Virus record (IMG/VR): IMGVR_UViG_3300044533_000706
Coordinates: 1-40,561 of that record
Length of the DNA stretch: 40,561 nucleotides
Source of the DNA: a virus
Reading direction: 5' to 3' (one strand)
Shown here: in pieces, positions 3,127-37,232 of the stretch
Layout: each line of letters starts with the position of its first letter
Numbering within the stretch: the stretch's first letter is position 1
The notes under the pieces: generated by a model
What the model saw: the letters and a program-made list of their open reading frames with translations, nothing else
Told to the model about the DNA's origin: nothing
The model's database searches: none
Program-made: the position numbers and the translations under genes

Positions 3127-3464
3127 AGCTAGATCCAGTTTTTAAAGATTCAAAAGAATTTAGATACGATGACCTATACTTGCTTACAGTTGGAACTGAA
3201 GCTGGGAATGAAATTCTAACAACATGTTTGGACATTGCTCATATGCTAATTAAAAAGAATATATCGTATGGAAATTCAGCCCTAGACCCAGTTCGTATAT
3301 TTTCAAAGGCGGGACCAAAAGAGCAGCTATACGTTAGAATTGATGATAAACTAAATAGACTTATTAAAGGTGAAGAATACCCAGGAGATAATGATATTGA
3401 TGATCTAATTGGATACCTAATATTGTTAAAGGTAGCTAAGGAATTTGCTATTTCAGTCGACTAG
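3123..3464 (+). CDS. DUF1599-like (nucleotide-modification-associated) protein
   Basis: 113 residues, all-alpha. The signature YGNSALDPVRIFSK followed by VRIDDKLNRLIKG and DNDIDDLIGYLILLK matches my memory of the DUF1599 family, found in many phages and thought to be MazG/dUTPase-like or linked to nucleotide modification. The repeated acidic residues in DDKLNR and DIDDLIGY could bind magnesium. Assignment is from pattern memory. It closes the replication cluster; a promoter for the terminase genes lies over its last codons. Confidence 0.7.
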   Translation: MKLDPVFKDSKEFRYDDLYLLTVGTEAGNEILTTCLDIAHMLIKKNISYGNSALDPVRIFSKAGPKEQLYVRIDDKLNRLIKGEEYPGDNDIDDLIGYLILLKVAKEFAISVD

Positions 3465-3473
3465 AAGTATAAT
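3445..3473 (+). promoter_or_regulatory. Near-leaderless promoter for the terminase-small-like gene
   Basis: TTGCTA (3445-3450), a 17-base spacer and TATAAT (3468-3473). The -10 ends eight bases before the ATG at 3482 and no purine-rich ribosome binding site fits between them, so the transcript should start at or next to the start codon. Confidence 0.6.
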
Positions 3474-3481
3474 ATAACTAT

Positions 3482-4018
3482 ATGGAAATTGAATTATCTG
3501 ATCATTTTGATCGCATGAACATGGTAGTTGAAGAACTTCTTAAGGGAAGCACTCCAACTCAAATTGCTACAATCACTGGACTCAAAAGGGCAGAGGTTTT
3601 AGAGCATATTGATGAATGGAAAGAAGTTGTAAGAAACGACTCTGGTGCTCGTGACAAAGCAAAAGAAGCTATATCTGCAGCTGACCAACACTATGCAATG
3701 CTTATAAGAGAAGCTCACGACCTGGCAAAAGAAGCCAAGATGCAGGGCCAGCTTAGTGTACAAGCAACAGCTATTAAATTAGCTTTGGACATTCAAGGCA
3801 AAAAGGTTACAATGCTTCAAGATGTGGGCTTGCTTGAAAATAATGAGTTAGCTTCACAGATATCAGATACAGAAAGAAAGCAGGAGATACTTGTAAAAAT
3901 ATTAAAAGAGGTTTCTGCGACATGTCCAAAATGTAAACTTGAAGTATCAAAGAGACTATCACAAATAAATGGAATAGTAGAGCCGATAGAAATCATAGAG
4001 GCGGCATCAAATGAGTAA
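3482..4018 (+). CDS. Probable terminase small subunit (HTH DNA-binding)
   Basis: 178 residues. An N-terminal HTH is visible (TPTQIATITGLKRAEVLEHIDEW, roughly residues 25-46), followed by a long helical middle and a C-terminal pair of cysteines (CPKCKLE, about residue 143). Small terminase subunits bind the packaging site through an N-terminal HTH and oligomerise through helices, and this gene sits one gene upstream of the large terminase. The identity is from position and architecture. The CPKC pair is unusual for a terminase small subunit. It overlaps the next gene by eight bases. Confidence 0.65.
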   Translation: MEIELSDHFDRMNMVVEELLKGSTPTQIATITGLKRAEVLEHIDEWKEVVRNDSGARDKAKEAISAADQHYAMLIREAHDLAKEAKMQGQLSVQATAIKLALDIQGKKVTMLQDVGLLENNELASQISDTERKQEILVKILKEVSATCPKCKLEVSKRLSQINGIVEPIEIIEAASNE

Positions 4019-4598
4019 TAGCCCAATTGATCTGACTAACCTAGAGATACTTGGTGAAAGAATCTATGTATATAAAAATTTTATATCACAGGATGAGATT
4101 GATAAGGTTCTTTTGGAAGTAAAAAATGTAGAAGATTGGCATGTTGGTGAATACTTTACAAATACAATGGGTACATACAACACAAGAACAGTTGATTACC
4201 TTAAGGAAAGAATTCAAAATTTATTAGACGACAAACACTATGCTTCAGATTCATCACATGTTGTTAGAATGGTTAAAGGAAATATGTGGGGAGCCCACTC
4301 AGACGTACACGACTTTGAAGAAATTGAAAAGCTAGCTAAAGAGTATAAAGAAGGAGACGACTTTATTGACAAGCAGCTTTCAGTTTTTGGAACGATTGTA
4401 TACTATCAATTGCCAATCAATGGCGGCGGGCTTTTTTATAGCAAACAAAACTTAAAATACAAGCCTTCCCCAGGAGACCTTGTTATTCATGGATCAGATG
4501 ATTACTGTGAGCATGGCGTTGAAGAAGTTTTAGATGGAGAAAGATACGCTACTTCTGGCTATATATATAAGAATGTAAAGATTAAAAATGGACATTGA
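4011..4598 (+). CDS. 2OG-Fe(II) dioxygenase between the terminase genes
   Basis: 195 residues. Iron ligands are seen as H96-x-D98 (GAHSDVHD) and H168 (CEHGV), with R178 placed to bind the 2-oxoglutarate carboxylate. The NFISQDEID start is typical of prolyl-4-hydroxylase-like enzymes. The gene overlaps both neighbours: eight bases with the terminase-small-like gene and eleven with the large terminase, so it is co-translated with the packaging genes. Substrate unknown. An enzyme embedded between packaging genes could modify a virion protein or simply be an insertion at a tolerant site. Confidence 0.88.
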   Translation: MSNSPIDLTNLEILGERIYVYKNFISQDEIDKVLLEVKNVEDWHVGEYFTNTMGTYNTRTVDYLKERIQNLLDDKHYASDSSHVVRMVKGNMWGAHSDVHDFEEIEKLAKEYKEGDDFIDKQLSVFGTIVYYQLPINGGGLFYSKQNLKYKPSPGDLVIHGSDDYCEHGVEEVLDGERYATSGYIYKNVKIKNGH

Positions 4599-6378
4599 TT
4601 TTAATGACATTATTGATATTCTAGATGGCGAAGAGTTTGATGAAAGACCAGTCGATCTAGAAACATTTGTAACTGATAAAAACTATTTAGGATTGCCAGA
4701 ACTATCTAAGCACCAGTACACATTGATAGAAAAATCATCTCAGATATATAAAGAATCAACTCTTATAAAACTTTTTGGTGAAGAAGAAGGATCATTAAGA
4801 TATAGGCAAACATGCAATGAAGTTGTTGCTCAGTTAGGAAAAGGAAGCGGTAAAGATTATTGCTCGACAATATCTGTTGCCTACATAGTATATTTGCTTT
4901 TATGTTTAAGAGACCCAGCTGCGTACTATGGTAAGCCACCTGGTGACTCAATTGATATTATTAACATTGCTATTAACGCACAGCAAGCGAACAACGTATT
5001 TTTTAAAGGATTTAAAAATAGAGTAACTCATTCCCCGTGGTTTGCTGGTAAGTACTTTGAAAAAGCTTCAGAAATAAAGTTTGATAAAAATGTTACAGTG
5101 TATTCTGGGCACTCAGAAAGAGAAGCATTTGAGGGTTACAACGTTCTTGTAGCAGTACTTGATGAAATCTCTGGCTTTGCTCTAGACAGTACAAGCGGGC
5201 ATGACCAGGCAAAAACTGCTAGTGGAATTTATGACATGTACAGGGCATCTGTTGACTCACGTTTTCCAGACTACGGCAAAGTTATATTGCTTTCTTTCCC
5301 TAGATTTAAAAACGATTACATCCAGCAAAGATACGATGATATTGTATCTGAAAAAGAAGTAATATCAATGTCTCACAAATTTAAGCTTGATCCAGAACTT
5401 CCTGATAATACCGTAGGTAATGAATTTGAAATATTTTGGGACCAGGATGAAATAATATCTTACAAGTATCCAAAAGTGTATGCAATAAGAAGGCCAACAT
5501 GGGAAGTTAATCCTACTAGAACAATAGAAGACTTTAAAATTGCATTTTATAGAGATGTTACCGATGCCCTAGGAAGATTTGCTTGCATGCCACCAGAAGC
5601 AATTGATGCTTTTTTTAAGTCACGTGAAAAAATTGAAATGGCTTTCAACGACCTATCTTTAGCTGTAGACGGATTCGGAAGATTTGAAGAATGGTTTATT
5701 CCAGAAGAAGATAAAGACTACTACATCCATGTGGACTTGGCTCAAAAGCATGACCACTGCGCCGTGTCAATGGCTCATATTGAAAAGTTTGTTAGCGTAA
5801 AAGTAACTGATACATATTCTCAGCCAGCACCAATTGTTAAAGTGGATGCCGTAATGTATTGGACTCCTACATCAGACAAGTCTGTAGACTTCGGAGAGGT
5901 AAGAGATTATATATTGTCATTAAGATCTAGAGGATTTAATATTAGAATATGTACTTTTGACCGATGGAACTCTCACGACATGATGCAGCAGCTAAAACAA
6001 TATGGAATCAATACCGAAACTTTATCTGTAGCTAAAAAACATTATGACGATATGGCTATGGTTGTTTTGGAAGAGAGATTAAATGGTCCTCACATACCAC
6101 TTCTTATTGATGAATTGCTGGAGCTAAGAATTATGAGAGACAAAGTGGATCACCCCAGAAAAGGCTCTAAGGACTTAGCTGACGCAGTATGTGGATCTAT
6201 TTACAATGCAATTAGTTTAACTAGAGCAGCTTTTGGTGACATAGAGGTACACGATTACTCATCTGTTAAAAAACAATATAGAGAGTCTTTGGTTGTAGAT
6301 AGTCCTAATTTAATTAGAGCCCCATCTACAATGCCAAGAGATCTTTCTGATGCACTGAGTGGAATGGAAATAGTATGA
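4588..6378 (+). CDS. terL: Terminase large subunit
   Basis: 596 residues. The N-terminal ATPase has a P-loop GKGSGKD (84-90) with a deviant Walker A, and a Walker B ending LDE (191-193; AVLDEISGF). The C-terminal RNase H-like nuclease shows D383 (YIHVDLAQ), D458 (CTFDRW) and D529/D532 (KDLADAVCGSIYNA). The protein powers DNA translocation into the prohead and makes the packaging cuts. It has the usual full length. It starts inside the preceding dioxygenase gene and its stop overlaps the next ATG by four bases. Confidence 0.95.
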   Translation: MDIDFNDIIDILDGEEFDERPVDLETFVTDKNYLGLPELSKHQYTLIEKSSQIYKESTLIKLFGEEEGSLRYRQTCNEVVAQLGKGSGKDYCSTISVAYIVYLLLCLRDPAAYYGKPPGDSIDIINIAINAQQANNVFFKGFKNRVTHSPWFAGKYFEKASEIKFDKNVTVYSGHSEREAFEGYNVLVAVLDEISGFALDSTSGHDQAKTASGIYDMYRASVDSRFPDYGKVILLSFPRFKNDYIQQRYDDIVSEKEVISMSHKFKLDPELPDNTVGNEFEIFWDQDEIISYKYPKVYAIRRPTWEVNPTRTIEDFKIAFYRDVTDALGRFACMPPEAIDAFFKSREKIEMAFNDLSLAVDGFGRFEEWFIPEEDKDYYIHVDLAQKHDHCAVSMAHIEKFVSVKVTDTYSQPAPIVKVDAVMYWTPTSDKSVDFGEVRDYILSLRSRGFNIRICTFDRWNSHDMMQQLKQYGINTETLSVAKKHYDDMAMVVLEERLNGPHIPLLIDELLELRIMRDKVDHPRKGSKDLADAVCGSIYNAISLTRAAFGDIEVHDYSSVKKQYRESLVVDSPNLIRAPSTMPRDLSDALSGMEIV

Positions 6379-6623
6379 GTATATATCAAGAAAAAGCAAA
6401 AGCATGTGTCTGCTGCAGCAAGCATGTACCTTTGCCAACTAGATTAAAAGAATACAATGGAGTATTGCTTTGCCCAACAACTTTTGACAACATACATGAG
6501 TATAAAAGAGTTTGGACGGAAATGGGCAAAAGGCCTCCAGGAAGTATAAGAAAACATTTTTCTGAGTATGTTCAAAAGGTTGTAGAGCAATCCCTTGACA
6601 AAAATGATGATAAAATAATATAA
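6375..6623 (+). CDS. Hypothetical cysteine-containing small protein
   Basis: 82 residues, translationally coupled to terL by an ATGA overlap. An N-terminal CVCC motif with a further cysteine in LLCPTTFDN suggests a half zinc ribbon; the C-terminal half is a basic amphipathic helix (SIRKHFSEYVQKVVEQSL). No family recognised. Coupling to terL suggests a packaging or head-assembly accessory, but that is only position. The promoter for the following tRNA overlaps its last codons. Confidence 0.65.
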   Translation: MSIYQEKAKACVCCSKHVPLPTRLKEYNGVLLCPTTFDNIHEYKRVWTEMGKRPPGSIRKHFSEYVQKVVEQSLDKNDDKII

Positions 6624-6624
6624 T
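6595..6624 (+). promoter_or_regulatory. Consensus promoter for the CAU tRNA
   Basis: TTGACA (6595-6600), 18-base spacer, TATAAT (6619-6624). Start of transcription would fall near 6631, two bases before the mature tRNA 5' end, which strongly supports a dedicated tRNA promoter. Confidence 0.75.
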
Positions 6625-6632
6625 TAGGCTAA

Positions 6633-6706
6633 GCAACAATAGCTTAGTCGGTTAAAGCCCCGAACTCATAATTCGGTAATCGTAGGTTCAAGTCCTACTT
6701 GTTGCA
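6633..6706 (+). tRNA. tRNA with CAU anticodon (Met, or Ile2 if lysidine-modified)
   Basis: 74 bases. Acceptor stem GCAACAA pairs perfectly with TTGTTGC (6699-6705), discriminator A. D stem GCTT/AAGC, anticodon stem CCGAA/TTCGG with the loop giving CAT at 6667-6669, T stem GTAGG/CCTAC. CCA is not encoded. The G1-C72 pair argues against an initiator tRNA. Elongator Met and Ile(CAU) cannot be separated by eye. A strong AGGAGG ribosome binding site for the next gene begins two bases after the tRNA. Confidence 0.93.
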
Positions 6707-9751: not shown

Positions 9752-10288
9752 ATGAAAACCGTAGGAGATAAGCTTGGTAACTTTGCTGTTACTGGAGTTA
9801 AGCCAGGGGCTTTGTCGTATGATGAATCCTCTTTCGAAATAATTACGCAGGAATCTTTTCCAGGAAAATGGAAAGTTATTGCTTTCTATCCCAAGGACTT
9901 TACGTTTGTATGCCCAACCGAAATTGTTGCATACGATGCTTTAGTAAATGATTTTAATGATAGAGATACAGTTCTAATGACTGGTTCTGTTGATAATGAA
10001 TTTTGCAAAATTGCATGGAGAAATGCACATGATGATCTCAAGAAGACAAACTCATGGTCATTTGCAGATACAGCGCACCAACTAGCTAGCGACCTTGGAG
10101 TACATCACTCTTCTGGAGTTACATACCGTGCTACATTTATTGTTGACCCAGAAAATATTATTCAGCATGTAACTGTAAACAATCTAGATGTAGGAAGAAA
10201 CCCAGACGAAACACTTCGCATACTAGATGCACTGCAAACAGGAGAGCTTTGTGCATGCAATAGGTCATTAGGCGGAGAAACTCTTTAA
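9752..10288 (+). CDS. ahpC: Peroxiredoxin AhpC
   Basis: 178 residues, a complete AhpC/Prx1-type peroxiredoxin. The peroxidatic cysteine is C54 in FYPKDFTFVCPTE; resolving cysteines are C167/C169 in ELCACN near the C-terminus, as in mycobacterial AhpC. It reduces hydrogen peroxide, organic peroxides and peroxynitrite. An AAGGAG site precedes the ATG. The TAATG overlap with ahpD makes a two-gene operon as in actinobacterial chromosomes, where AhpD recycles AhpC. This implies capture of a host operon. Finding it in a phage suggests protection of the infected cell from oxidative stress. Confidence 0.95.
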   Translation: MKTVGDKLGNFAVTGVKPGALSYDESSFEIITQESFPGKWKVIAFYPKDFTFVCPTEIVAYDALVNDFNDRDTVLMTGSVDNEFCKIAWRNAHDDLKKTNSWSFADTAHQLASDLGVHHSSGVTYRATFIVDPENIIQHVTVNNLDVGRNPDETLRILDALQTGELCACNRSLGGETL

Positions 10289-10800
10289 TGACATGGGTAG
10301 ACCAACTTAAAGAATCTCTTCCAGAGTATGCTAAAGATATAAAATTAAACCTGGATGCTGTTATTAATAGGTCTACTATTGATCCAGAGCATGCTACATA
10401 CCTTTCAATTTCAGCAGCATTTGCAACTGGAAACGCCAAGCTGCTTGCATTTATAGTTGCAAGCGCAACGGATGAAGTCGAAAAGAATGCAGCCCTTACA
10501 GCAGGCGCTATAATGGCACAAAATAATACCTGGTATCCTTTTATTGAAATGGCTGACGATGCTAATCTTAAAGGATTACCAGCACAACTTAGAATGAATG
10601 CTATATCATCTCACGGCGGTACAACAAAGGGCAAGTTTGAAGCATACTCATTAGCATCATCAATAGTTGGCAAGTGTCATTTTTGTGTTAAAGCACACTA
10701 TGATACATTGAAAGAAGAAGGATATAGTGTTGAGCAATTACGTGATATCGGAAGAATTGCAGCAACAATTAATGCGCTGTCTAAGATCTTGTCAGCTTAA
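10288..10800 (+). CDS. ahpD: Alkylhydroperoxidase AhpD
   Basis: 170 residues, close in length to the mycobacterial protein of about 177. The start (LKESLPEYAKDIKLNLDAV) and the catalytic GKCHFCVKAHYDTL match AhpD: C130, C133 and H137. In mycobacteria AhpD is the reductant of AhpC, coupling it to dihydrolipoamide systems. The gene starts within the ahpC stop codon. It is followed by two tRNA genes. A thioredoxin is encoded at 24770 and could provide an alternative electron source. Confidence 0.93.
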   Translation: MTWVDQLKESLPEYAKDIKLNLDAVINRSTIDPEHATYLSISAAFATGNAKLLAFIVASATDEVEKNAALTAGAIMAQNNTWYPFIEMADDANLKGLPAQLRMNAISSHGGTTKGKFEAYSLASSIVGKCHFCVKAHYDTLKEEGYSVEQLRDIGRIAATINALSKILSA

Positions 10801-28794: not shown

Positions 28795-28820
28795 AATAAA
28801 TAACCTATAGGAGTAATAAC

Positions 28821-28973
28821 ATGTCAGACGGAAAAGATTTAAACGGATTTACATCACCAAAGGTAAACGATTCAACCGTATGGGGCAATAACGAGCAGTA
28901 TGCAGCTGATCCAAAGGCAGCATTCCCATCAACAGACGTTTCAAACCAAGCGCAGGCTCAGGGACCTAAGTAA
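28821..28973 (+). CDS. Small hydrophilic protein, strongly expressed
   Basis: 50 residues, polar and without hydrophobic core (SDGKDLNGFTSPKVNDSTVW then ADPKAAFPSTDVSNQAQAQGPK). It has the best expression signals in the cluster: extended -10, 5' hairpin, and TAGGAG ribosome site. High-level synthesis of a disordered small protein suggests a structural or sequestering role, or a peptide substrate. No family recognised. Confidence 0.7.
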   Translation: MSDGKDLNGFTSPKVNDSTVWGNNEQYAADPKAAFPSTDVSNQAQAQGPK

Positions 28974-28974
28974 C

Positions 28975-29067
28975 ATGTGCTTTGAGTGCGGTTGCGAAAG
29001 CGTAGGAAGTGAAACTGGAGTTAAAGAAGTTAGCATCCAGGATGTATCAGATCAAAGGAATCAATAA
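28975..29067 (+). CDS. Cysteine-rich micro-peptide (30 aa, CxxCxC)
   Basis: 30 residues beginning MCFECGCESVG. One base after the previous stop; the stop shares a base with the next ATG (TAATG). The CFECGC block is shared in form with the next gene (CKDCSC), so they are tandem relatives. Metal binding or a modified peptide product are both possible. Confidence 0.55.
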   Translation: MCFECGCESVGSETGVKEVSIQDVSDQRNQ

Positions 29068-29174
29068 TGTGTAAAGATTGTTCATGTGGAAAAGATGAGC
29101 AGATTCAAAATGAATCAGGTCCATCACCAGCTAGTAACAATGTTGTGACTATATCACAAATTAAAGGTGCATAG
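29067..29174 (+). CDS. Cysteine-rich micro-peptide (35 aa, CxxCxC)
   Basis: 35 residues beginning MCKDCSCGKDEQ, then a serine/proline/asparagine tail. TAATG coupled with the previous gene and its TAG overlaps the next GTG. The N-terminal cysteine motif is the only conserved-looking part between the two micro-peptides. Confidence 0.55.
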   Translation: MCKDCSCGKDEQIQNESGPSPASNNVVTISQIKGA

Positions 29175-29350
29175 TGTCAGAAAATGTTGTAAACTCTGGA
29201 GAGGCAACTAAAAAAAATCCTTCTCAGGGTAAATTTAAATCTGGTATTCATGAAAAAAGACCTCCAATGAAAGTGGATGTTAATAAACATGGCATAAGGA
29301 GAGAAACTCCTGCAGTTCCACCTAAAAAGGTGGGCAGGAAAAAAATATAA
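29174..29350 (+). CDS. Small basic protein (58 aa, GTG start)
   Basis: GTG start overlapping the previous stop, with AAAGG six bases upstream. Product is basic and proline/lysine-rich (SGIHEKRPPMKVDVNKHGIRRETPAVPPKKVGRKK) and likely disordered, fitting nucleic-acid binding. The stop shares a base with the next ATG (TAATG). Confidence 0.6.
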   Translation: MSENVVNSGEATKKNPSQGKFKSGIHEKRPPMKVDVNKHGIRRETPAVPPKKVGRKKI

Positions 29351-29520
29351 TGTCTCCAAAAAAATTTGGTAAACACCCATCTTTTAATGATACTATCATA
29401 AAAGATGGAAAGATTATAAAAATTAGAAAAGACGGTAGAATTAAATCTATTGTAGATGATTATCATCCAAATCATAAAGGGGATAAAAAATTAGAAAACT
29501 TCAAGACGGAACAGAAGTAG
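29350..29520 (+). CDS. Small basic protein (56 aa), possible frameshift donor
   Basis: 56 residues starting MSPKKFGKHPSFNDTIIKDG then KIIKIRKDGRIKSIV. TAATG coupled. The frame contains a run of six A at 29485-29490 read as AAA AAA; a -1 shift there would continue into the frame of the next gene (KLQDGTEVEEF), which otherwise begins at ATT. So this and the 29490 gene may make one fused product of about 123 residues. Confidence 0.6.
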   Translation: MSPKKFGKHPSFNDTIIKDGKIIKIRKDGRIKSIVDDYHPNHKGDKKLENFKTEQK

Positions 29521-29720
29521 AAGAATTTTCACACCCCATAGATTTAATAATACATACTAAAGCGCCAGCTAAATGGAAAATTATTGATATGGAAACTGGT
29601 CAAGAATACATTGGAAACCAAGATCCTCATGAAACTTTTTCTGAAGTATTGAGATCTAAGGTTTTTAATGGTAAAATTGGACAATGGAAGAAAATAAAAG
29701 GGAGAATTAAAAATGAATGA
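29490..29720 (+). CDS. Hypothetical protein with ATT start or reached by -1 frameshift
   Basis: The 76-codon frame has a stop (TAA) just upstream and no ATG, GTG or TTG before its conserved-looking beginning (RKLQDGTEVEEFSHPID). ATT at 29490 follows AAAGGGG with a seven-base gap, an excellent ribosome site. The context TAAAAAATTA is identical to that at the ATT of the SDR gene (19938-19947). The alternative is -1 slippage on the A run in the upstream gene. The C-terminal half (DPHETFSEVLRSKVFNGKIGQWKKIKGRI) is basic. The stop overlaps the next ATG. Confidence 0.55.
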   Translation: MRKLQDGTEVEEFSHPIDLIIHTKAPAKWKIIDMETGQEYIGNQDPHETFSEVLRSKVFNGKIGQWKKIKGRIKNE

Positions 29721-30195
29721 AGATTTAAAGCCAGCTGGGTGGATAGACGAAGATTTAATTGAAGAAGCTGTAAGTTTTCTTTTTAAAGATTTAAATTTAG
29801 AAGACTATAAATATTTAAATATTCATTTTATACCCAATATTCTTAGCGACATGTGCTCTGTTGAAGTAAAAGAATTAAGAGATGGCTATCAGATGATTGA
29901 TGGAATAGCATTGGTAATAGTAACCTGTAATTCTAATGAGGAAAAAGATCAGTGGATAAAGGAAAATGATATTCCAGATTCCTGGAATGTATTTTTAGAT
30001 CACGATAGAGATATATCTAAGAAGTTTTCTAATTTAAATATAGAGTATGATATCCCAGACAGGCTTTCCTGTCTAGTTGATATAGATGGCCATTTACTTT
30101 GGTCAATGAAAAGTGGATTAGCAGAAAAAAGAGATATGCTTCTTTCAAATAAATTTAATAAGAGTTTTGAAAATTTAATAGATATAGCAGAATAG
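29713..30195 (+). CDS. Redoxin-like protein (thioredoxin fold, weak)
   Basis: 160 residues. The stretch from about 65 on (DGIALVIVTCNSNEEKDQWIKEN, then NVFLDHDRDISKKFSNLNI, then RLSCLVDIDGHLLWSMKSGLAEKRDMLL) follows the beta-alpha order of AhpC/TSA redoxins, including the R-x-x-x-LVDxDG strand. The normal peroxidatic cysteine position is not clear (a C lies in VTCNS), so activity is doubtful. It may be a non-catalytic partner or chaperone for the neighbouring oxygenases. Precedes the sulfotransferase gene. Confidence 0.5.
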   Translation: MNEDLKPAGWIDEDLIEEAVSFLFKDLNLEDYKYLNIHFIPNILSDMCSVEVKELRDGYQMIDGIALVIVTCNSNEEKDQWIKENDIPDSWNVFLDHDRDISKKFSNLNIEYDIPDRLSCLVDIDGHLLWSMKSGLAEKRDMLLSNKFNKSFENLIDIAE

Positions 30196-30199
30196 TTTT

Positions 30200-31003
30200 A
30201 TGAAGCAGTTGTATTTTTTGCATATTCCAAAAACTGCTGGTAAGTTTATTTCTAGTGAAATATTAAACTCTATACCAAATCATTCAGAATCTTTATATAT
30301 AAGCACTCATTTTCCTAATAACAAAGAGTTTATAAAAGATAAAATATACATATCTGCACATGCTGGAACATATATACCTGAAAATATAAAAGATATTGAT
30401 GTGGCTACAGTTGTTAGAAATCCAATTGATGCAAGGGCAAGCTATTTTAATTTTATATATCATATGTATTTAGACACAAGAAAAGAATATATTGATCTTG
30501 GTACAATGCGTGAAAAGTTCCTGTATTATTTATTTGAAGATAAAAATTTTTTAATTCACAACAATTATCAAAGCAGATTTTTATGCAATCCTTCCGATGA
30601 AAGATCCTGGGACAGAAAAGCATTTTTTGAAATTCATTCACCTGACATTTTTAAAAAATATCAAGAAGGGCTTGCTTTTGACTGGTTTGTTGGTAATGAA
30701 AATACATCATTGGATTTAGCTATTAAGAATATATCTAATTTTAAAATAAAAAATACTGTAGACAGATTAGATTTATTTTTAAATAGCATATCTAAATGGT
30801 TTTTATTAAACCATGGGTTGCAAATAAAATTTAATCAAAATGAAAAAACAAATGAAAGCCTATCCACTCATAACGGCGTAGAGTATTCATCTAAAGATTT
30901 AATAGATTTGCTTACCGAAGAAGAGATTTCTAGCATTTTATATTTAAATAGCATAGACTATGCTGTTTATAATTTTGTAAGGGAGCAAGAAAAAGATGAT
31001 TAG
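30200..31003 (+). CDS. PAPS-dependent sulfotransferase
   Basis: 267 residues. The phosphosulfate-binding loop is HIPKTAGKFISSE (residues 8-20), and the 3'-phosphate site is ATVVRNPIDARASYFNF with R73 and S81. The overall order and length match the family of small cytosolic-type sulfotransferases. It transfers sulfate from PAPS to a hydroxyl or amine on a glycan, peptide or small molecule. The likely donor maker is the APS-kinase-like gene at 11527, 18 kb upstream. It is coupled to the double dioxygenase gene by an eight-base overlap, so hydroxylation followed by sulfation is an attractive idea. Confidence 0.87.
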   Translation: MKQLYFLHIPKTAGKFISSEILNSIPNHSESLYISTHFPNNKEFIKDKIYISAHAGTYIPENIKDIDVATVVRNPIDARASYFNFIYHMYLDTRKEYIDLGTMREKFLYYLFEDKNFLIHNNYQSRFLCNPSDERSWDRKAFFEIHSPDIFKKYQEGLAFDWFVGNENTSLDLAIKNISNFKIKNTVDRLDLFLNSISKWFLLNHGLQIKFNQNEKTNESLSTHNGVEYSSKDLIDLLTEEEISSILYLNSIDYAVYNFVREQEKDD

Positions 31004-32297
31004 TGTAAGTCCCAATAGACCAATGAAAGAGCTAGAAGATTTCAATTTTAGGCTTGCAGGATTTTACGATGTAAGCAATATTTTAGATATAACTAATTCA
31101 TTTATAGACGAGTGGAATATATACACTTCAAGACAAAATGAGGTATACGATAATAGAGTTAATCCGCACTTGCATACAAATACATATATTATACAGGACC
31201 ACCCGCTAGATTGGGTATTTGGTCAGCCAATTAAATCTGAGGCAAAAGATAAAAAGTGCTTAGAATCAATATCTCACATAATAAAAAATCTTGAGGAAGA
31301 GATTGTTGGAAAAGCGGCAAGGGTTCTTTTGATAAAGCTTGGATCTAAAAAAGATGTTGCTGTGCACATGGACGGTGGTGACTATTTGTCAACAGTTAGA
31401 AGATTCCATATACCCTTAATAACAAACGATTCAGTGTCATATACTGTTGATAATGAAACTATACACATGAAAGCATCTGAATGTTGGGAAATAAACAATC
31501 TAAAATACCATTCTGTTAAAAATGATGGCGAAGAAGATAGAATACATCTGCTTGTAGACATATTACCAGAGTATTCTTTTAAGGTGTATAGTCCTGAATT
31601 AGATAAAAAAATAAGAATTGTTGAAAATTTTATATCAGAAGATGAAGCCAACTTTTTTATAGATTACATAAATAAAAATAAAGATGATAAATCTAAGTTT
31701 CCCTTAACAAAAGGTGAGGTAAGGGGAAAAATTAGAAGCGAGGCTAACATACCAGAGCTCGTACCTTTAAAAAAACATGAAGAGATACTAGATGCTATAA
31801 AAAATATTTCAAAAAGAACAATGGCCGAGTTTAAAGATATTAGTGGGCAGGAAGACCTATGCACCTCAGCTTTTTGGATGACAAGGCTGGGACCAAAAAC
31901 TATACTTCCTATGCACCCAGATGATCATAAGTATGCCACACACCTGTACATGAGCTCAGTTATATACCTAAATGAAGATTATGAAGGAGGCTACTTAAAG
32001 TTTGGAGATGTTGATTTAACATATAAGCCTAAAAAGTATAGTGCAGTTTTTTTCCCATCTTCCTATTTGCATGAAGTTACTAGAATAATTAGCGGGATAA
32101 GGATGACTTTGCCAAATTGGGTATCAATCGGTCAAGAAAGAGACATATTCAGAGATAACCCTATAGTGTACGATCCAAGAACTTTGTTTGGAAGTAATTC
32201 TGACGATCCAGCGTTGCCAGCTTTATTTCAAAGTTGGGCTAATGCCAATAACACTACCATTACTGGTTATGACGGAACAGTTTATTCTGCAAAATAA
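30996..32297 (+). CDS. Fusion of aspartyl/asparaginyl hydroxylase-like and prolyl-4-hydroxylase-like dioxygenases
   Basis: 433 residues with two complete 2OG domains. Residues 1-195: aspartyl/asparaginyl beta-hydroxylase type, with VLLIKLGSKKDVAVHMDGG (H124-x-D126), RRFHIPLIT (136-143), WEINNLKYHSV (H172) and R182. Residues 200-380: prolyl-4-hydroxylase type, with NFISEDEANFF, MHPDDHK (H307, D309), VIYLNEDYEGG, H359 and R369. Residues 381-433 are an additional tail. Two dioxygenase domains of different families in one chain suggest sequential oxidation of one substrate. It overlaps the sulfotransferase start. Confidence 0.88.
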   Translation: MISVSPNRPMKELEDFNFRLAGFYDVSNILDITNSFIDEWNIYTSRQNEVYDNRVNPHLHTNTYIIQDHPLDWVFGQPIKSEAKDKKCLESISHIIKNLEEEIVGKAARVLLIKLGSKKDVAVHMDGGDYLSTVRRFHIPLITNDSVSYTVDNETIHMKASECWEINNLKYHSVKNDGEEDRIHLLVDILPEYSFKVYSPELDKKIRIVENFISEDEANFFIDYINKNKDDKSKFPLTKGEVRGKIRSEANIPELVPLKKHEEILDAIKNISKRTMAEFKDISGQEDLCTSAFWMTRLGPKTILPMHPDDHKYATHLYMSSVIYLNEDYEGGYLKFGDVDLTYKPKKYSAVFFPSSYLHEVTRIISGIRMTLPNWVSIGQERDIFRDNPIVYDPRTLFGSNSDDPALPALFQSWANANNTTITGYDGTVYSAK

Positions 32298-33017
32298 ATG
32301 ATTGTAGATAAAAATCAGATTGATTTAATTGGATACAGTGTAACACCTGTTCCAGTAAGCGAGCTTATTTGGTTAAATAAAGATGTACACTTAAGTTTTT
32401 ACTTAAAGGTTCACAATGATCCTTTAGAGTACGCAGCAGTCGTCGATATTGATTTCTTTACCAGTAATAAAAAAGAAATTATAGAAAAAGAAACTGCTAA
32501 ATCCTTTGCCTCAATAGTTTTAAATGGTAAAGATGTTTTATTACATTTTAAAGACTTTCACATTAATAATACTAATGTTCGTAATTTATTTCAGTATGAT
32601 AACGAATGGCATAGATTTGACATAAAAATTTTTAGGGACAATTTGTGGTGCCCAAATAAAAGATGTAAGTTTGAAGACTGCTTACATGTGGAAGCAAAAT
32701 CATTGGGAGATTCGTACTTGTCATGGAACCCGAAACATATTAAAAATCATATAAAAGTTTCAATAAGCATAGATGGTTCAAAAGAAATTTATTCAAATTA
32801 CATGAGCGGGGCCACACACTCCATCATTAGTTTTAGTAATAACAATGTAAATAATACAAAAGATAGCATATTGCTTAATCAAATAACAGAATCATCTTTA
32901 GCTAATCGGCCCTCAATATCACTGAAAGAAATAAATGCATTATATGACGAAGATGAAATAGAATTTGTTTTAAAAAATTATGTTACTCCAACACCGACTA
33001 TTGACATGAACCAGTAG
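32298..33017 (+). CDS. Hypothetical protein (239 aa)
   Basis: Starts directly after the double-dioxygenase stop. Beta-rich (LIWLNKDVHLSFYLKVHNDPLEYAAVVDIDF) with a cysteine cluster (WCPNKRCKFEDC) in the middle that could bind zinc. No family recognised. The final codons contain the TTGACA of the next promoter. It may be part of the modification cluster as its last member, or its substrate. Confidence 0.7.
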   Translation: MIVDKNQIDLIGYSVTPVPVSELIWLNKDVHLSFYLKVHNDPLEYAAVVDIDFFTSNKKEIIEKETAKSFASIVLNGKDVLLHFKDFHINNTNVRNLFQYDNEWHRFDIKIFRDNLWCPNKRCKFEDCLHVEAKSLGDSYLSWNPKHIKNHIKVSISIDGSKEIYSNYMSGATHSIISFSNNNVNNTKDSILLNQITESSLANRPSISLKEINALYDEDEIEFVLKNYVTPTPTIDMNQ

Positions 33018-33029
33018 ATATTGTATAAT
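33001..33029 (+). promoter_or_regulatory. Perfect consensus near-leaderless promoter before 33036
   Basis: TTGACA (33001-33006), 17-base spacer and TATAAT (33024-33029): a perfect sigma-A consensus. Six bases later comes the ATG at 33036, with no SD. This is the strongest promoter in the window by sequence. Confidence 0.85.
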
Positions 33030-33035
33030 TAAATC

Positions 33036-33191
33036 ATGAAAACTTTATTTACATTAATTTTACTACCGCTCATTGGGTATTTTACCTTTACTGCTTATAG
33101 AGATATGAGAAATGCTATAGATGCAACTAAAATTCACGATAAGTATAAGCGTGATAAATTTTGGGAGTCACAAAGAGATTTTGAGGAATAG
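33036..33191 (+). CDS. Small membrane-anchored protein (51 aa)
   Basis: One N-terminal membrane helix (TLFTLILLPLIGYFTFTAY), then a charged amphipathic region (DMRNAIDATKIHDKYKRDKFW) ending in acidic residues. Expressed from a perfect leaderless promoter, so early and strong expression is likely; could alter the host membrane. The next gene (groES-like) starts three bases after its stop. Confidence 0.68.
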   Translation: MKTLFTLILLPLIGYFTFTAYRDMRNAIDATKIHDKYKRDKFWESQRDFEE

Positions 33192-33193
33192 AA

Positions 33194-33490
33194 ATGATTA
33201 AGCCGTATGGAAACTTATTATTAATTAAAGAGAATAGGGTTGAAGATAGGACTACATCATCTGGTATAGTTCTAATGGCTTCACTTAATGATTCCGCCTT
33301 AAGAGTTGGCAACATTGTTGACCTTGGGGATGGTGAGCATAACTATAAAGGTGAGCTTATACCAATCAAGGGATTAGCAATTGGTAACAACGTTTACTAC
33401 AACCAAAACAGCGGTATAGACATTGAAGACGAAAGCGGAGAAAAGTATTTACTTTTAAATACAAAAAGTGTCCTGGCAATAAAAGTATAA
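33194..33490 (+). CDS. GroES-like co-chaperonin
   Basis: 98 residues with the Cpn10 layout: IKPYGNLLLIKE, the mobile loop region (VEDRTTSSGIVL), GNIVDLGDGEHN, GNNVYYNQNSGIDIE and KYLLLNTKSVLAIKV. The SGIVL loop is the GroEL-contacting hydrophobic tripeptide (IVL). Phage GroES homologues such as T4 gp31 replace the host cofactor to allow large capsid proteins to fold in GroEL. A GroEL is not encoded here, so the host chaperonin would be used. Confidence 0.9.
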   Translation: MIKPYGNLLLIKENRVEDRTTSSGIVLMASLNDSALRVGNIVDLGDGEHNYKGELIPIKGLAIGNNVYYNQNSGIDIEDESGEKYLLLNTKSVLAIKV

Positions 33491-33495
33491 AGGCA

Positions 33496-33627
33496 ATGAT
33501 AAATAAGATTATATGCATCATAAAGAAGCACACACTCGTAGAAGCAGGGACGTGCCCATATACTGGATCAACATATCAGTATTGTGAAAGATGCGGGGCA
33601 ATGATTCCAATACAGGTGGCGGTATGA
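33496..33627 (+). CDS. Small zinc-ribbon protein (43 aa)
   Basis: 43 residues: C7 and CPYTG (C20), then YQYCERCGAMIP (CERC) supply a zinc site. Resembles the short DUF1660-type phage proteins in pattern (C...C...YCxxCG). Overlaps the next ATG (ATGA). Confidence 0.6.
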   Translation: MINKIICIIKKHTLVEAGTCPYTGSTYQYCERCGAMIPIQVAV

Positions 33628-33728
33628 AAGAACCAAAGATAATGAAAATGGATTGGCGTCCATTAGGATATTGGCCAGTTTATAAAGATGGAAAACTAAC
33701 ATGGGAAAAGGATCCAAAAGATGATTGA
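33624..33728 (+). CDS. Small basic peptide (34 aa)
   Basis: 34 residues, MKEPKIMKMDWRPLGYWPVY then KDGKLTWEKDPKDD. ATGA-coupled to the zinc protein and overlapping the next ATG by eight bases. The composition (W and P rich) resembles other phage micro-proteins, with no known function. Confidence 0.5.
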   Translation: MKEPKIMKMDWRPLGYWPVYKDGKLTWEKDPKDD

Positions 33729-33990
33729 ATGGTTAGCAAGGCGTATATTTAGCTGGACGAGCCTAAGAGAATATATCGTTGATGAAGTTCATCTCTATGA
33801 TCATCTGGATACAATTATTAATGATCCAGAAGGAATGAAAATAGCATCTTCTAGCTGGATGGAAGGTGACACGTGGTATGGCTGGAACTATGATAGTAAC
33901 GCCAAGCGTTACTACTTTGATGATGTTGGAAATAAATCTCTAATAGGTTTATGGGAAGATCAATGGTTAAGTAAGGCAGATAGTAATTAG
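33721..33990 (+). CDS. Hypothetical protein (89 aa)
   Basis: 89 residues, tryptophan-rich (WLARRIFSWTSLREYIVDEVHLYDHLD then SWMEGDTWYGWNYD and LIGLWEDQWLSK). Seven tryptophans suggest binding to a nucleotide, sugar or another protein. Precedes tRNA-Arg(CCG) by four bases. Family not recognised. Confidence 0.65.
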   Translation: MIEWLARRIFSWTSLREYIVDEVHLYDHLDTIINDPEGMKIASSSWMEGDTWYGWNYDSNAKRYYFDDVGNKSLIGLWEDQWLSKADSN

Positions 33991-33993
33991 AAT

Positions 33994-34064
33994 TTCAGGT
34001 TCCTATAATGGTCGTAGAGCGGTTTCCGAAACCGATAATGAAGGTCCGATTCCTTCACCTGGAG
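33994..34064 (+). tRNA. tRNA-Arg (CCG), slightly unusual
   Basis: 71 bases. Acceptor TTCAGGT pairs with ACCTGGA (34057-34063), discriminator G. Anticodon stem GCGGT/ACCGA has a G-A mismatch at its base, loop TTCCGAA with CCG at 34026-34028. The T arm is GAAGG-TCCGATT-CCTTC, where C replaces the usual second T of the loop; the variable loop is only four bases. These deviations leave a recognisable cloverleaf but make function less certain than the other four tRNAs. It decodes CGG. Confidence 0.78.
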
Positions 34065-34068
34065 CTTA

Positions 34069-34260
34069 ATGCCTAAACAATGGTCAGATAAATCTCAATG
34101 GATTACACATTGCCCAATATGTTTTTGTGCAACTACACATCAATTATTAGATTTTCATTTACAATATCATGAAAATAAGATCCCAATTAGTGAGCCCGCC
34201 GAAAATAGAGAGCTTCCAGTCAACTACGTTGACACAACTAATGGTATAATAGATATCTAA
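34069..34260 (+). CDS. C2H2-type zinc-finger protein
   Basis: 63 residues. HCPICFCATTHQLLDFHLQYHEN has C-x2-C and H-x4-H spacing of a C2H2 finger (about 14-36), followed by an acidic region. Phage C2H2 or mixed fingers often bind DNA or partner proteins. Starts five bases after the tRNA. Confidence 0.65.
   Translation: MPKQWSDKSQWITHCPICFCATTHQLLDFHLQYHENKIPISEPAENRELPVNYVDTTNGIIDI
34245..34250 (+). promoter_or_regulatory. -10-like element before the 34276 gene
   Basis: TATAAT at 34245-34250; a TTGACA at 34229 is too close to serve as its -35. A second TATAAT (34270-34275) lies directly before the ATG, together with AAGGG as ribosome site. Weak evidence only. Confidence 0.35.
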
Positions 34261-34275
34261 CGATAAGGGTATAAT

Positions 34276-34506
34276 ATGTGGTGGTCTTGGCTATTAGCAG
34301 CTATTGGTGTAACAGGAATATTTTTTGTAGGACGAAAGGTCATATGGGCCTGGCTCCTATTGTTATTTAATGAGTTCTTGTGGATTGTTTATGCAGTTAC
34401 AACTAAGCAGTATGGGTTTATTTTTGCAGCTGTAGCATACGCAGTTGTCTATATTAGATCCTATATACACTGGTCTAAAGAACCAGTAAACAAAATACAT
34501 TTATGA
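34276..34506 (+). CDS. Small membrane protein (76 aa, two to three helices)
   Basis: Hydrophobic segments WWSWLLAAIGVTGIFFVG, AWLLLLFNEFLWIVYAVTT and QYGFIFAAVAYAVVYIRS. The W-rich pattern is reminiscent of part of a PnuC-type transporter but is too short to be one. May be a holin-like or membrane regulator. Overlaps the next ATG by four bases (ATGA). Confidence 0.65.
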   Translation: MWWSWLLAAIGVTGIFFVGRKVIWAWLLLLFNEFLWIVYAVTTKQYGFIFAAVAYAVVYIRSYIHWSKEPVNKIHL

Positions 34507-35282
34507 AAAACAAAATAAAGTTTCATTCTAAATCTAACAGTAATAACTCTGTTTCAATGCATAGCCCACAACCATCAAAAAACTTTATACCAGATTGGTA
34601 CTTATCTAAAGATAAATACATTACTGATGGTAAAAATAACAAGGCCATAGAGTTTTATAAGACTAAAGATGGTTCAACGAAATTAATTAGACAACGCACA
34701 TATAAAACTTGTCCAGCATTATTAGATTCGCTATCTTCTGGATACATACTGTCAACCCCATGTGATATAGAGATAAAACAAACAGATGGTTTAATTTCAG
34801 TAGTCCTTGATGATGCATTCACTACTGGCGTTAATGGAAAGAAGGGTGAGTTTTGTTTTGTAAGAGGGGCAAACGAGGGTTTCCCAACACCCAAAGGATA
34901 CAGCCTAGTTCACCTTGTCTGGAATGTTAACTGGTTTCCAGAGCTTCCAGATGGTTACATAGCACTGTTTGCACACCCAATAAATAGGTTTGATCTACCT
35001 TTTATAACAATATCTGGCATAATTGACTGCAGCGGGTATATAAATGGAGGTCAGATACCCTTCTTTATTAAAGACGACTTTGAGGGTATAATAGAGGCTG
35101 GCACACCATTTATCCAGATTATTCCATTTAAGAACGAAGCTTGGCAGCATGAGAACATATTTTATGATGAAGAAGAAACAGCAATTCATAGGCAAGAGAT
35201 GGATACAAAATACAGAGTTGTAGACCTTGATCACGATACTAATTACAAACAGAAATTTTGGAGTAAGAAAATATTCAAGTAA
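34503..35282 (+). CDS. DUF6065-like phage protein
   Basis: 259 residues. KTCPALLDSLSSGYILSTPCDIEI, then LVWNVNWFPELPDGYIALFAHPINRFDLPF, and GIIDCSGYINGGQIPFFIKDDFEGIIEAGTPFIQIIPFKNEAW closely resemble a family I know from marine phages (DUF6065 in my memory). Function is unknown; the beta-rich cupin-like core suggests a binding or enzymatic role. ATGA-coupled to the membrane protein. Confidence 0.72.
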   Translation: MKNKIKFHSKSNSNNSVSMHSPQPSKNFIPDWYLSKDKYITDGKNNKAIEFYKTKDGSTKLIRQRTYKTCPALLDSLSSGYILSTPCDIEIKQTDGLISVVLDDAFTTGVNGKKGEFCFVRGANEGFPTPKGYSLVHLVWNVNWFPELPDGYIALFAHPINRFDLPFITISGIIDCSGYINGGQIPFFIKDDFEGIIEAGTPFIQIIPFKNEAWQHENIFYDEEETAIHRQEMDTKYRVVDLDHDTNYKQKFWSKKIFK

Positions 35283-35293
35283 GGGGCAATTTA

Positions 35294-35542
35294 ATGGCAT
35301 ACAGCAGATTCTCTAATTCAGATATATATATTTATTCCCATGTAGGTGGATGGATTGAATGTGCAGCATGCTGGCTAAATGAAGGATCAGATGAATATTC
35401 TTTATTCTCAATGTCAGAAGAGATCCACGATGATGGTCACTTAATAGCACACGTTAGAGAACATATTAAAGCTGGCCACGATGTACCTCAAGGATTGCTT
35501 ATGGAGATACTTGCAGATGATGAGAGATATGGTAAAATATAA
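35294..35542 (+). CDS. Small metal-binding-like protein
   Basis: 82 residues starting MAYSRFSNSDIYIYSHVGGWIECAACWLNE. CAAC at about residue 24 with the later HLIAHVREHIKAGH would make a C2H2-like site. I recall similar proteins in actinophages. AAGGGG ribosome site. The next gene follows after three bases. Confidence 0.7.
   Translation: MAYSRFSNSDIYIYSHVGGWIECAACWLNEGSDEYSLFSMSEEIHDDGHLIAHVREHIKAGHDVPQGLLMEILADDERYGKI
35533..35538 (+). promoter_or_regulatory. Near-leaderless -10 before the 35545 gene
   Basis: TAAAAT at 35533-35538, six bases before the ATG. A poor TTGCAG lies 16 bases upstream of the -10. No SD. Confidence 0.4.
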
Positions 35543-35544
35543 AT

Positions 35545-35766
35545 ATGGATAACATTGAATTAACAGATGAAGAGATCTCAAAGGGGTATGAGTCAGAGAA
35601 CCCAGATGAAGATAAGTGGGATAATATTGAGAAAGCTTGCTGGAGCGGATATAAGCAGGTTGGTATGAAAGATAAGGGCGGAAGAAAAGTCCCTAACTGC
35701 GTACCAGTAAAGAAGTCTTTATTCGGCACAGAAGGCCCACAGAAGCTAATACCAAGGAACAAGTAA
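35545..35766 (+). CDS. Small phage protein with GYKQVGMKDKGGRKVPNCVP signature
   Basis: 73 residues. WDNIEKACWSGYKQVGMKDKGGRKVPNCVPVK is a short conserved block I have seen attached to phage head or protease proteins and as a stand-alone protein. The rest is acidic. It may be a capsid-related accessory. No SD; a possible leaderless start. Confidence 0.65.
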   Translation: MDNIELTDEEISKGYESENPDEDKWDNIEKACWSGYKQVGMKDKGGRKVPNCVPVKKSLFGTEGPQKLIPRNK

Positions 35767-35767
35767 T

Positions 35768-35935
35768 ATGGGTATACTAGATAACCTAGAATCATATCTA
35801 GAAAAGGCGGAACAGGCCGAAAAATGCCATTACTGTAATAACATAGCTAAGTACAATGACCTTGCTGAAATAGATCAAACATATGATGTAGTAGGCGTAT
35901 GTGAATGCCATTCATTTAAAGGACTATCTTCTTAA
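35768..35935 (+). CDS. Small zinc-ribbon protein (55 aa)
   Basis: One base after the preceding stop. CHYCNN (about 23-26) and CECHSF (about 46-48) give a zinc ribbon at both ends of a charged middle. Part of the cluster of zinc micro-proteins at 33-38 kb. Confidence 0.62.
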   Translation: MGILDNLESYLEKAEQAEKCHYCNNIAKYNDLAEIDQTYDVVGVCECHSFKGLSS

Positions 35936-35938
35936 CTA

Positions 35939-35968
35939 TTGACAATTCCTAGTCAACTAGGATATAAT
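35939..35968 (+). promoter_or_regulatory. Near-leaderless promoter for the trypsin-like protease gene
   Basis: TTGACA (35939-35944), 18-base spacer, TATAAT (35963-35968), then six bases to the ATG at 35975. As with the subtilase gene, TTG in the -35 lies in frame and can be misread as a start. No SD. Confidence 0.75.
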
Positions 35969-35974
35969 GTAAAT

Positions 35975-36940
35975 ATGATTAAATATCGCTTAGTAGCATC
36001 AATTGCTACATCAATTGTTATGTTCATTTCTCCTGCATATGCAGTTGAGAATGGCACACTATTAACTCAAGATGAGAATGCCGTATATCTATTAGATGGC
36101 TCAGTAAACGCTTTCTTGTATCAACCACAAATTGTATTCACATCCTCACATGGAATGGATCAGTGGGCTAAAGGTGAGCTATTTGTTAACAACAGCTCAG
36201 GCCAAAAGTCTAAGGTCGATAAGATACTTATGGCTCCAGGATTTAAAGATAGAATAATTACTAAAGAGGCTATTGCCGCTGGCAAAGCAGTTTTAAGTCG
36301 CTCCAATGACTTTGCAATTCTAATTCTTCAAGAGCCACTTCCAATGACTCAAAAGGTAGATCTAATTAAGAGTAATGATCTTTTAGATATAATCCGTAAT
36401 CAAGAGCCAGTGTATTCAATTGGATATAGCTCATACGACAACACTCGTAAAAAAGATCAGCGTCCAAGGCAACTCGAAGCAAAAATGATTGATAAAGAAT
36501 TAGCAAGGCAAATATACGAAGCTTATTACTCAGTTGGACATCCTAATTGGGGGCCAAAGGGATCTACCTTTGAGTTGATAGATATTCAATTAGTACACTC
36601 TGCAGCAACGGGTTCAGGATGTAACGGAGACTCAGGCAGCGGTTACTTCCTCAAAAGGGGTAACACTAAGGTTTACCTTGGTCCAGCAGGGGCACATGCT
36701 GTTGGTATACCAAACTGTGGGGAACCTGGATTCTGGGGAGACAAAGGTAATGCCTTTGCAGTTGAGCCTGTGTATAAGCACTTAGACCTAATAAAGCAGG
36801 CTGAGCTAATTGTTGATCAGATGAATGTAAAGCCAGTAGAGCCCACTGTAAAGCCCACACCACAGCCTACTGCAACACCAAAGGCGGGAAGAAAGAAAGC
36901 CTTCAGATATATACATAAAACATCTCATAGGTGTCTATAA
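35975..36940 (+). CDS. Secreted trypsin-like serine protease (S1)
   Basis: 321 residues. Signal peptide cleaved after AYA (23). The chymotrypsin-type triad is complete: H59 in FTSSHGM, D112 in NDFAILIL, S220 in GCNGDSGSGYF; C216 and C248 probably form the conserved disulfide. A proline/threonine-rich linker (about 290-307) leads to a basic C-terminus ending in HRCL, which could bind the cell wall. It is the second secreted protease of the window and has the same leaderless promoter type as the first. Its target may be host surface proteins. Confidence 0.88.
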   Translation: MIKYRLVASIATSIVMFISPAYAVENGTLLTQDENAVYLLDGSVNAFLYQPQIVFTSSHGMDQWAKGELFVNNSSGQKSKVDKILMAPGFKDRIITKEAIAAGKAVLSRSNDFAILILQEPLPMTQKVDLIKSNDLLDIIRNQEPVYSIGYSSYDNTRKKDQRPRQLEAKMIDKELARQIYEAYYSVGHPNWGPKGSTFELIDIQLVHSAATGSGCNGDSGSGYFLKRGNTKVYLGPAGAHAVGIPNCGEPGFWGDKGNAFAVEPVYKHLDLIKQAELIVDQMNVKPVEPTVKPTPQPTATPKAGRKKAFRYIHKTSHRCL

Positions 36941-36987
36941 TACCCATATAGATGGCGAAAAAAGTGAAGTCGAAAAGTAGAGACCCC

Positions 36988-37016
36988 TTGTCAGTACCTG
37001 ACATAAATGTTATAAT
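36988..37016 (+). promoter_or_regulatory. Near-leaderless promoter for the 37023 gene
   Basis: TTGTCA (36988-36993), 17-base spacer, TATAAT (37011-37016, with TGT before it), six bases to the ATG at 37023. No SD. Confidence 0.72.
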
Positions 37017-37022
37017 AAATAC

Positions 37023-37232
37023 ATGCTGCAGAACTTAGAGATACCTGATCCATTTGCTACATTTGTGGCACACAAGTACGCTAATTTTAAGGGTATGAAA
37101 TATGACTTCTTTAGCGGTGAATGGGATATGAAATGTGGATGCTGCTCAGAGCCATTAAACGCTCCAACTAAGAAAATATTAAATAAGATCAGGCTATATC
37201 ACACTCGTAATGAATGTCTTGGGGGGTACTGA
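37023..37232 (+). CDS. Small zinc-binding-like protein
   Basis: 69 residues: MKCGCCSEPLNAP then YHTRNECLGGY. C-x-C-C and H...C ligands suggest a zinc finger in the C-terminal half; the N-terminus (IPDPFATFVAHKYANFKGMKYDFFSGEWD) is aromatic-rich. Its stop shares bases with the next ATG (TGATG). Confidence 0.65.
   Translation: MLQNLEIPDPFATFVAHKYANFKGMKYDFFSGEWDMKCGCCSEPLNAPTKKILNKIRLYHTRNECLGGY

Follow-up and report, generated by a model that had tools for sequence, protein, structure and literature searches.

What does it mean that, at eleven genes of one phage, a promoter -10 element stands directly in front of the start codon? The stretch in which this arrangement occurs, hereafter the window, comprises 40,561 bases (approximately 36% G+C, five tRNA genes) and is a virus record of its own, IMGVR_UViG_3300044533_000706 (G000). 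An earlier note on this DNA had listed eleven TATAAT-like hexamers ending 6–8 bases before an ATG. We propose that these are promoters of the type recognized by the host primary sigma factor, with the -10 so placed that leaderless mRNAs would result, and we put the probability of this reading at about 0.92.

A -10 box was defined as a hexamer with at most one mismatch to TATAAT, and its distance as the number of bases from the end of the hexamer to the ATG. On these terms all eleven coordinates are correct: eight boxes lie at distance 6, those of genes 23563 and 26524 at 7, and that of gene 3482 at 8 (genes are named by their ATG). The sites are as follows.

3468–3473, + strand: -10 TATAAT, 8 bases 5' of ATG 3482, with a -35-like TTGCTA at 17 bases; conserved gene two places 5' of the large terminase gene (phrog_9507)
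18523–18528, + strand: -10 TATAAT, 6 bases 5' of ATG 18535; small, lipoprotein-like product with a weak spanin-like match (phrog_456, E 0.0011)
22528–22556, + strand: TGGACA-17-TACAAT, 6 bases 5' of ATG 22563; HslV-family peptidase (phrog_1040)
23100–23128, + strand: TATACA-17-TATACT, 6 bases 5' of ATG 23135; small protein; the promoter overlaps the end of the preceding gene
23527–23555, + strand: TTGACA-17-TAAAAT, 7 bases 5' of ATG 23563; S8-family protease (PF00082) with a signal-peptide-like start
24735–24763, + strand: TTGACA-17-TATTAT, 6 bases 5' of ATG 24770; thioredoxin (PF00085)
26508–26516, + strand: extended -10 TGA-TAAAAT, 7 bases 5' of ATG 26524; 50-aa protein
33001–33029, + strand: TTGACA-17-TATAAT, both boxes perfect, 6 bases 5' of ATG 33036; 51-aa protein
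35530–35538, + strand: extended -10 TGG-TAAAAT, 6 bases 5' of ATG 35545; gap of 2 bases to the previous gene
35939–35968, + strand: TTGACA-18-TATAAT, both boxes perfect, with the palindrome CTAGTCAACTAG in the spacer, 6 bases 5' of ATG 35975; trypsin-like protease (PF00089)
36988–37016, + strand: TTGTCA-17-TATAAT with TGn, 6 bases 5' of ATG 37023; 69-aa protein

The earlier note had credited seven of these with a -35 element at 17–18 bases. With at most one mismatch to TTGACA there are six (22563, 23563, 24770, 33036, 35975 and 37023), and eight if two mismatches are allowed, which adds 3482 and 23135. Both boxes at 33036 are perfect, as had been said, and so are those at 35975. An extended -10 (TGn) is found at 26524, 35545 and 37023, the last of which has a -35 as well. 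Upstream of 3482 there is also an overlapping TAATAT, 6 bases from the ATG. The start codon is ATG in all eleven cases, and a filtered scan of the window for ATG or GTG sites with a -35 or TGn returned only ATG. A G+C-rich inverted repeat (26470–26495) lies directly 5' of the 26524 promoter and is kept in relatives while its stem letters change; it is perhaps the terminator of the preceding unit.

Boxes at 6–7 bases are far more frequent before genes than elsewhere. In the window they precede 9 of 77 called gene starts versus 8 of 812 internal ATGs (Fisher 2.4e-6); the nine leave out 3482, because of its distance, and 35545, which was lost to an overlapping minus-strand open reading frame (ORF) in gene calling and was added by hand for the ortholog comparison. 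Calling took the first ATG, longest ORF first, with GTG and TTG starts left out, and some genes and starts are wrong. Three close relatives of 110–117 kb (G001–G003, of which G001 nearly duplicates the window over their shared part) gave 13/168, 13/161 and 10/147 gene starts against 16/2268, 27/2227 and 23/2162 internal ATGs. Perfect TATAAT-N5-8-ATG occurs 112 times in five whole records, versus 54 with the pattern reversed. Since related sequences are not independent, counting was also done by family, using 569 families from 166 viral loci, several of them from one contig and some copies of the window's own genome; 182 families had at least two divergent upstream sequences. At distance 6 the box is present in half or more of the upstreams for 12 of the 182, while every other distance from 0 to 39 yields 0–1 families. 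As a permuted control, the other 19 A3T3 hexamers reach 0–1 families at distance 6; shifted words such as ATAATT reach up to 7 at distance 5, as a TATAAT peak implies. Counted to its first T, the signal stands about 12 bases upstream of the start codon and above background, as in leaderless genes of the actinobacterial type. A loose promoter and terminator scan, run for 18001–38000, did not rise above shuffles (81 promoters found, 81.9 expected). With stricter promoters, the + strand of the window has 17 versus 8.1 in shuffles, and six of the 17 end 6–7 bases 5' of an ORF.

The spacing is conserved among orthologs at ten of the eleven sites, 24770 being the exception. Counted as distinct ortholog upstreams with a box at 5–8 bases, drawn from the same 166 loci, the figures are 44/46 for 3482, 11/11 for 18535, 38/38 for 22563, 16/16 for 23135, 26/30 for 23563, 9/9 for 26524, 10/10 for 33036, 4/4 for 35545, 6/6 for 37023 and 2/2 for 35975, where one of the two is a copy of the window's. 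Column identity was analyzed for orthologs aligned from residue 1. In 35 thinned orthologs of 3482 it is 0.99 over the -10, 0.66 over the bases between -10 and ATG and 0.66 over the remaining upstream, and third-position (wobble) variation starts at the ATG. The bases between -10 and ATG drift in several families. Elsewhere the -10 columns are less clean, with identities of 0.65 for 23563 and 0.69 for 33036, the form of the box being variable; the distance also varies in the former, where 11 orthologs with distance 6 blur the column. The upstream of 23135 is conserved throughout (0.97) because it overlaps the preceding gene. At another phage locus (L177, 2957–4081) a gene which we take to resemble that of the phosphate-binding protein PstS has the box in 3/3 divergent upstreams.

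Genes with the box are poor in Shine-Dalgarno (SD) sequences, in agreement with the contrast drawn earlier: a run of at least 4 is found before 1 of 9 such genes versus 37 of 73 others in the window, and before 4 of 39 versus 278 of 475 in G001–G003. The median gap to the previous gene is 21 bases for box genes in the window and 23–26 in G001–G003, whereas 42–51% of the other genes in these relatives overlap their predecessor or lie within 10 bases of it. The earlier note had spoken of a switch separating leaderless from SD genes. In that form the idea does not stand, as the split largely tracks operon position: genes appear mostly to be leaderless at the head of a transcription unit and SD-led inside it. 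Genes 24770, 26903 and 33496 are putatively leaderless in some relatives and lie directly behind another gene in others, GGAGG preceding 24770 in several; a gene can thus change its mode through gain or loss of a promoter ahead of it. A redox or secreted class, which the earlier note had also suggested, was judged weak. Signal-peptide-like N-termini are modestly enriched over the three relatives (12/48 versus 39/475), but the counts in G002 by itself are 2/16 versus 16/163. Thioredoxin is the only redox product identified among the eleven, and the head genes of structural operons appear leaderless too.

From the motif, its fixed spacing, its conservation and the scarcity of SD runs we infer the transcription start, initiation at a 5'-AUG, the operons and the use of host RNA polymerase. 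With a -10 that ends six bases upstream of the ATG, the usual sigma-70 start of transcription falls on the A of that codon. Transcription would begin on this A or within about two bases of it, the mRNA would carry no ribosome-binding site, and the ribosome would start on the 5'-terminal AUG, as on actinobacterial leaderless genes. The genes concerned would stand first in transcription units that follow closely on the previous gene, those downstream being mostly SD-led. Promoter strength would be supplied in one set, including several accessory genes, by a -35 box and in the other, including structural-operon heads in the three close relatives, by an extended -10.

The window is part of an actinophage genome of probably about 115 kb in full, since WhiB (PF02467) was found in 6/6 records searched and the large terminase (TerL, 4588–6378) is closest to those of Streptomyces phages. 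The latter matches 370 phage records, of which the best 20 are Streptomyces phages at 60.9–63.5% identity; among phages of this host, Gilson is assigned to the Stanwilliamsviridae. Near-identical or related genomes occur on viral contigs of 110–117 kb (80 of 599 relatives kept). The marker gene in the window is

20763–21158, + strand: WhiB-like gene (PF02467), an actinophage marker; no -10 at 5–8 bases

and one of 14 control genomes, Corynebacterium glutamicum, was positive. In a paper on Nanopelagicales phages, whiB is named a key indicator for actinophages (PMC10202952). The first protein (9752–10288) of what we presume, from the families, to be an AhpC/AhpD-like pair (9752–10800) is nearest Burkholderiales among the genome contigs searched (63–69% identity), which is odd for an actinophage. 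Of its 304 relatives, the 80 loci kept are nearly all Burkholderiales by title; AhpC therefore gives no pointer to the host and was rejected as a guide.

A comparison of -10-to-ATG distances in related phages, as the earlier note had proposed, shows that the peak persists in G001–G003 and in phages of Streptomyces and Rhodococcus. Box genes at 6–7 bases are in excess in Gilson (7/216), Annadreamy (8/199) and Coruscant (9/220), all of Streptomyces, and in Rhodococcus phage Peregrin (7/208). Thermus phage phiYS40 serves as a positive control because its middle and late mRNAs are described in a review (PMC3594737) as mostly leaderless; it has the box at 12/166 gene starts, 10 of them at exactly 6, and thus the same positional peak. 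No box at 6–7 bases was found in Vibrio phage D4 (0/119), Brevibacillus phage Jenst (0/157), Rhizobium phage L338C (0/143) or Listeria phage LIS04 (0/133), and the counts were not significant in a Microcystis phage (1/120) and a Maribacter phage (5/184, p=0.13). Records were handled in 20-kb pieces (50-kb for Gilson); phiYS40, Gilson, Woes, GTE7, TIN2 and G001–G003 were profiled whole, D4 over 80 of 83 kb, L338C over 100 of 110 kb and each other phage over 120 kb. At the gene before the portal, 3 distinct upstreams of the window's group have the box at 8; in Gilson and Annadreamy it lies at 7, and in Coruscant and Peregrin at 6, these starts being less certain because the proteins align only from about residue 11–15. 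The 3482 gene has its box in the window's group, and the three Streptomyces phages and Peregrin lack it there.

Several observations weigh against our reading. The box at 24770 is kept in only 2 of 14 ortholog upstreams. In G002, 4 of 13 box genes lie in overlaps or gaps of at most 10 bases, so that some single calls are chance. Eleven of the 17 stricter + strand promoters of the window stand at other distances, and some are perhaps leadered. The p-values are indicative, since upstreams that are related do not count as independent and one contig supplies several of the loci. With the looser TANNNT, Gilson shows no distinct peak, its 7 at distance 6 being matched by 7–8 at 17–18. Finally, Gordonia phages Woes (0/86) and GTE7 (0/99) and Tsukamurella phage TIN2 (0/96) lack the peak despite actinobacterial hosts, a comparison in which a single motif was used for all and in which TATAAT-like words are rare in these three because of their G+C of 57–59%. 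This result speaks against a simple host-kind rule; the peak agrees with the kind of host in most, not all, of the phages compared, being present in those of Streptomyces, Rhodococcus and Thermus and absent from the two of Gordonia and the one of Tsukamurella.

Could the ATGs be misassigned and the boxes be chance A+T-rich words upstream of gene starts? At 35–38% G+C, TATAAT-like words are common in this genome (about 0.5% of positions). The position-specific peak and the permuted hexamers contradict such an origin, as do the alignments of orthologs, most of which start at residue 1, and wobble that sets in at the ATG; as a general account it is refuted, and we give it next to no chance. Single weak sites may be chance, and 1364 (distance 5; 5 or 6 in 11/25, inside an overlap) was taken as such. 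A subtler possibility is that transcription starts 1–6 bases before the ATG, giving a very short leader read by 70S initiation. Distances of 7, 8 and 9 do occur (mostly 8 in the 3482 family, 8 before the portal in the window's group, 9 for the protease gene), and gene 22227 has a conserved -10 whose distance, over 31 distinct ortholog upstreams, is 10 bases in 16 cases and 9 in the other 15. With that spacing 22227 was excluded as a strictly leaderless gene, and its transcript possibly has a 3–4-base leader. The sharp family-level peak at 6, which places +1 on the A of the ATG with an ordinary 6-base discriminator, argues the other way, and we regard near-leaderless transcripts as possible, if somewhat unlikely, for the set.

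It is a different matter whether leaderless promoters mark middle and late genes, leaderless translation then being favored, as is reported for phiYS40. Besides that precedent, by adjacency such promoters lie before portal, tail and terminase genes, and there are none among 22 replication-module genes of G001. The last figure is not significant against 17 of 165 other genes (p=0.23), so a sparing of replication genes was rejected. Several sites have consensus -35 and -10 boxes that host polymerase could read from the outset, accessory genes carry leaderless promoters too, and the 3482 gene of the Streptomyces phages lacks a leaderless promoter. The IF3 C-terminal family was not found in 7 records; this carries little weight, given that phiYS40 is described as altering the levels of host factors. 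A temporal class strikes us as unlikely. A variant of it starts from the promoters themselves. A -35 (at most one mismatch) or TGn accompanies boxes at 6–8 bases in 101/137 divergent upstreams, versus 14/213 for -10-like hexamers at other distances; 50 of the 137 have a -35 only, 42 TGn only, 9 both and 36 neither, so that the two avoid each other (p=3e-6, the rows being related). In G001–G003 the promoters before virion genes (G001 54157, 55984, 77635 and their counterparts) have TGn and no good -35. One might imagine an early set with a -35, serving accessory and secreted genes through host polymerase, and a later set with TGn and a poor -35 at the heads of structural operons. If so, the late program would be translated largely via 5'-AUG initiation and be less sensitive to blocks of SD-led initiation. 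Against this, three of the four Gilson sites before structural genes lack TGn (13657, 18955 and 33264; 16024 has it), which lowered slightly what was already a small chance, and we consider the scheme improbable.

As for the polymerase, a phage sigma factor was rejected: the sigma region 2 family (Sigma70_r2) was found in none of 7 records, some of them possibly fragments, and Sigma70_r4 only below the cut-off in 5 of 7. That sub-cut-off match is to a GTG-started, helix-turn-helix-like protein of 46 aa (2986–3126), encoded two genes before 3482, which is a candidate regulator. A perfect TTGACA-18-TATAAT (6595–6633) ends 8 bases 5' of tRNA-Met, and G001–G003 also have this sequence 93–95 bases 5' of an ORF.

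The 3482 family has a palindrome-like AGTYRACY 5, 7 or 9 bases 5' of the -10 in 45 of its 46 upstreams. The window copies are at 3453–3464, overlapping the last codons of gene 3123, and at 35949–35960 (CTAGTCAACTAG, 35975 promoter). TAGTYRACTA is rare, with 1, 2, 4, 1 and 1 copies in the window, G001, G002, G003 and Gilson, and 0.1, 1.2, 0.8, 1.0 and 0.6 in simple shuffles; a looser search of the window gave 6 versus 4.5 expected. An operator shared by the whole set was rejected; no more than two of the eleven promoters have the palindrome as a site, and in these it is possibly an operator.

If our reading holds, a rule drawn from sequence alone (a -10 ending 6–8 bases before the ATG, no SD) would help to fix start codons and operon heads in a group of uncultured actinophages, in which annotation that relies on SD sites could misplace starts. 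The actinobacterial leaderless layout would extend to phages of Streptomyces, of Rhodococcus and of the window's host, orthologs showing both gain and loss, and it becomes testable whether phages of such hosts employ leaderless initiation for timing or as a channel that resists shut-off.

How does this compare with known systems? Zheng et al. (2011, PMC3160421) predicted actinobacterial leaderless genes by means of a TANNNT signal; that signal too lies about 12 bases upstream at its first T, equal to distance 6 here, SD sites are missing, and the mode shifts among orthologs. Those were cellular genomes, whereas here we deal with a phage lineage of lower G+C, a sharper TATAAT and many -35 or TGn elements. 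Kasugamycin is described in the same paper as sparing leaderless mRNAs. In mycobacteria, an ATG or GTG that opens the transcript is described as both necessary and sufficient for leaderless translation, and leaderless genes show no enrichment for related functions (Shell et al. 2015, PMC4633059); that work used RNA-seq and ribosome profiling, while the leaderless genes described here are predicted. Leaderless transcripts are frequent in phages, according to a paper on phage AR9 (PMC5312081). phiYS40 shares the positional peak, and its reported temporal class and initiation-factor changes set it apart. Our literature search found no account of leaderless promoters for this phage group. The closest counterparts are predicted promoters of mycobacteriophages, PL1 and PR2 (PL2 is similar) of Cluster O (PMC4351075) and P90 of Adephagia (PMC11373665), which are likewise SigA-like actinophage promoters in which +1 coincides with the start codon's first base. 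They amount to few sites per phage, as against about ten per 115 kb here, examined across families. The kind is thus known in actinobacteria and predicted for a few mycobacteriophage promoters. The present analysis adds a demonstration by family, controlled with phages of other hosts; it also makes gain and loss visible and distinguishes two promoter types.

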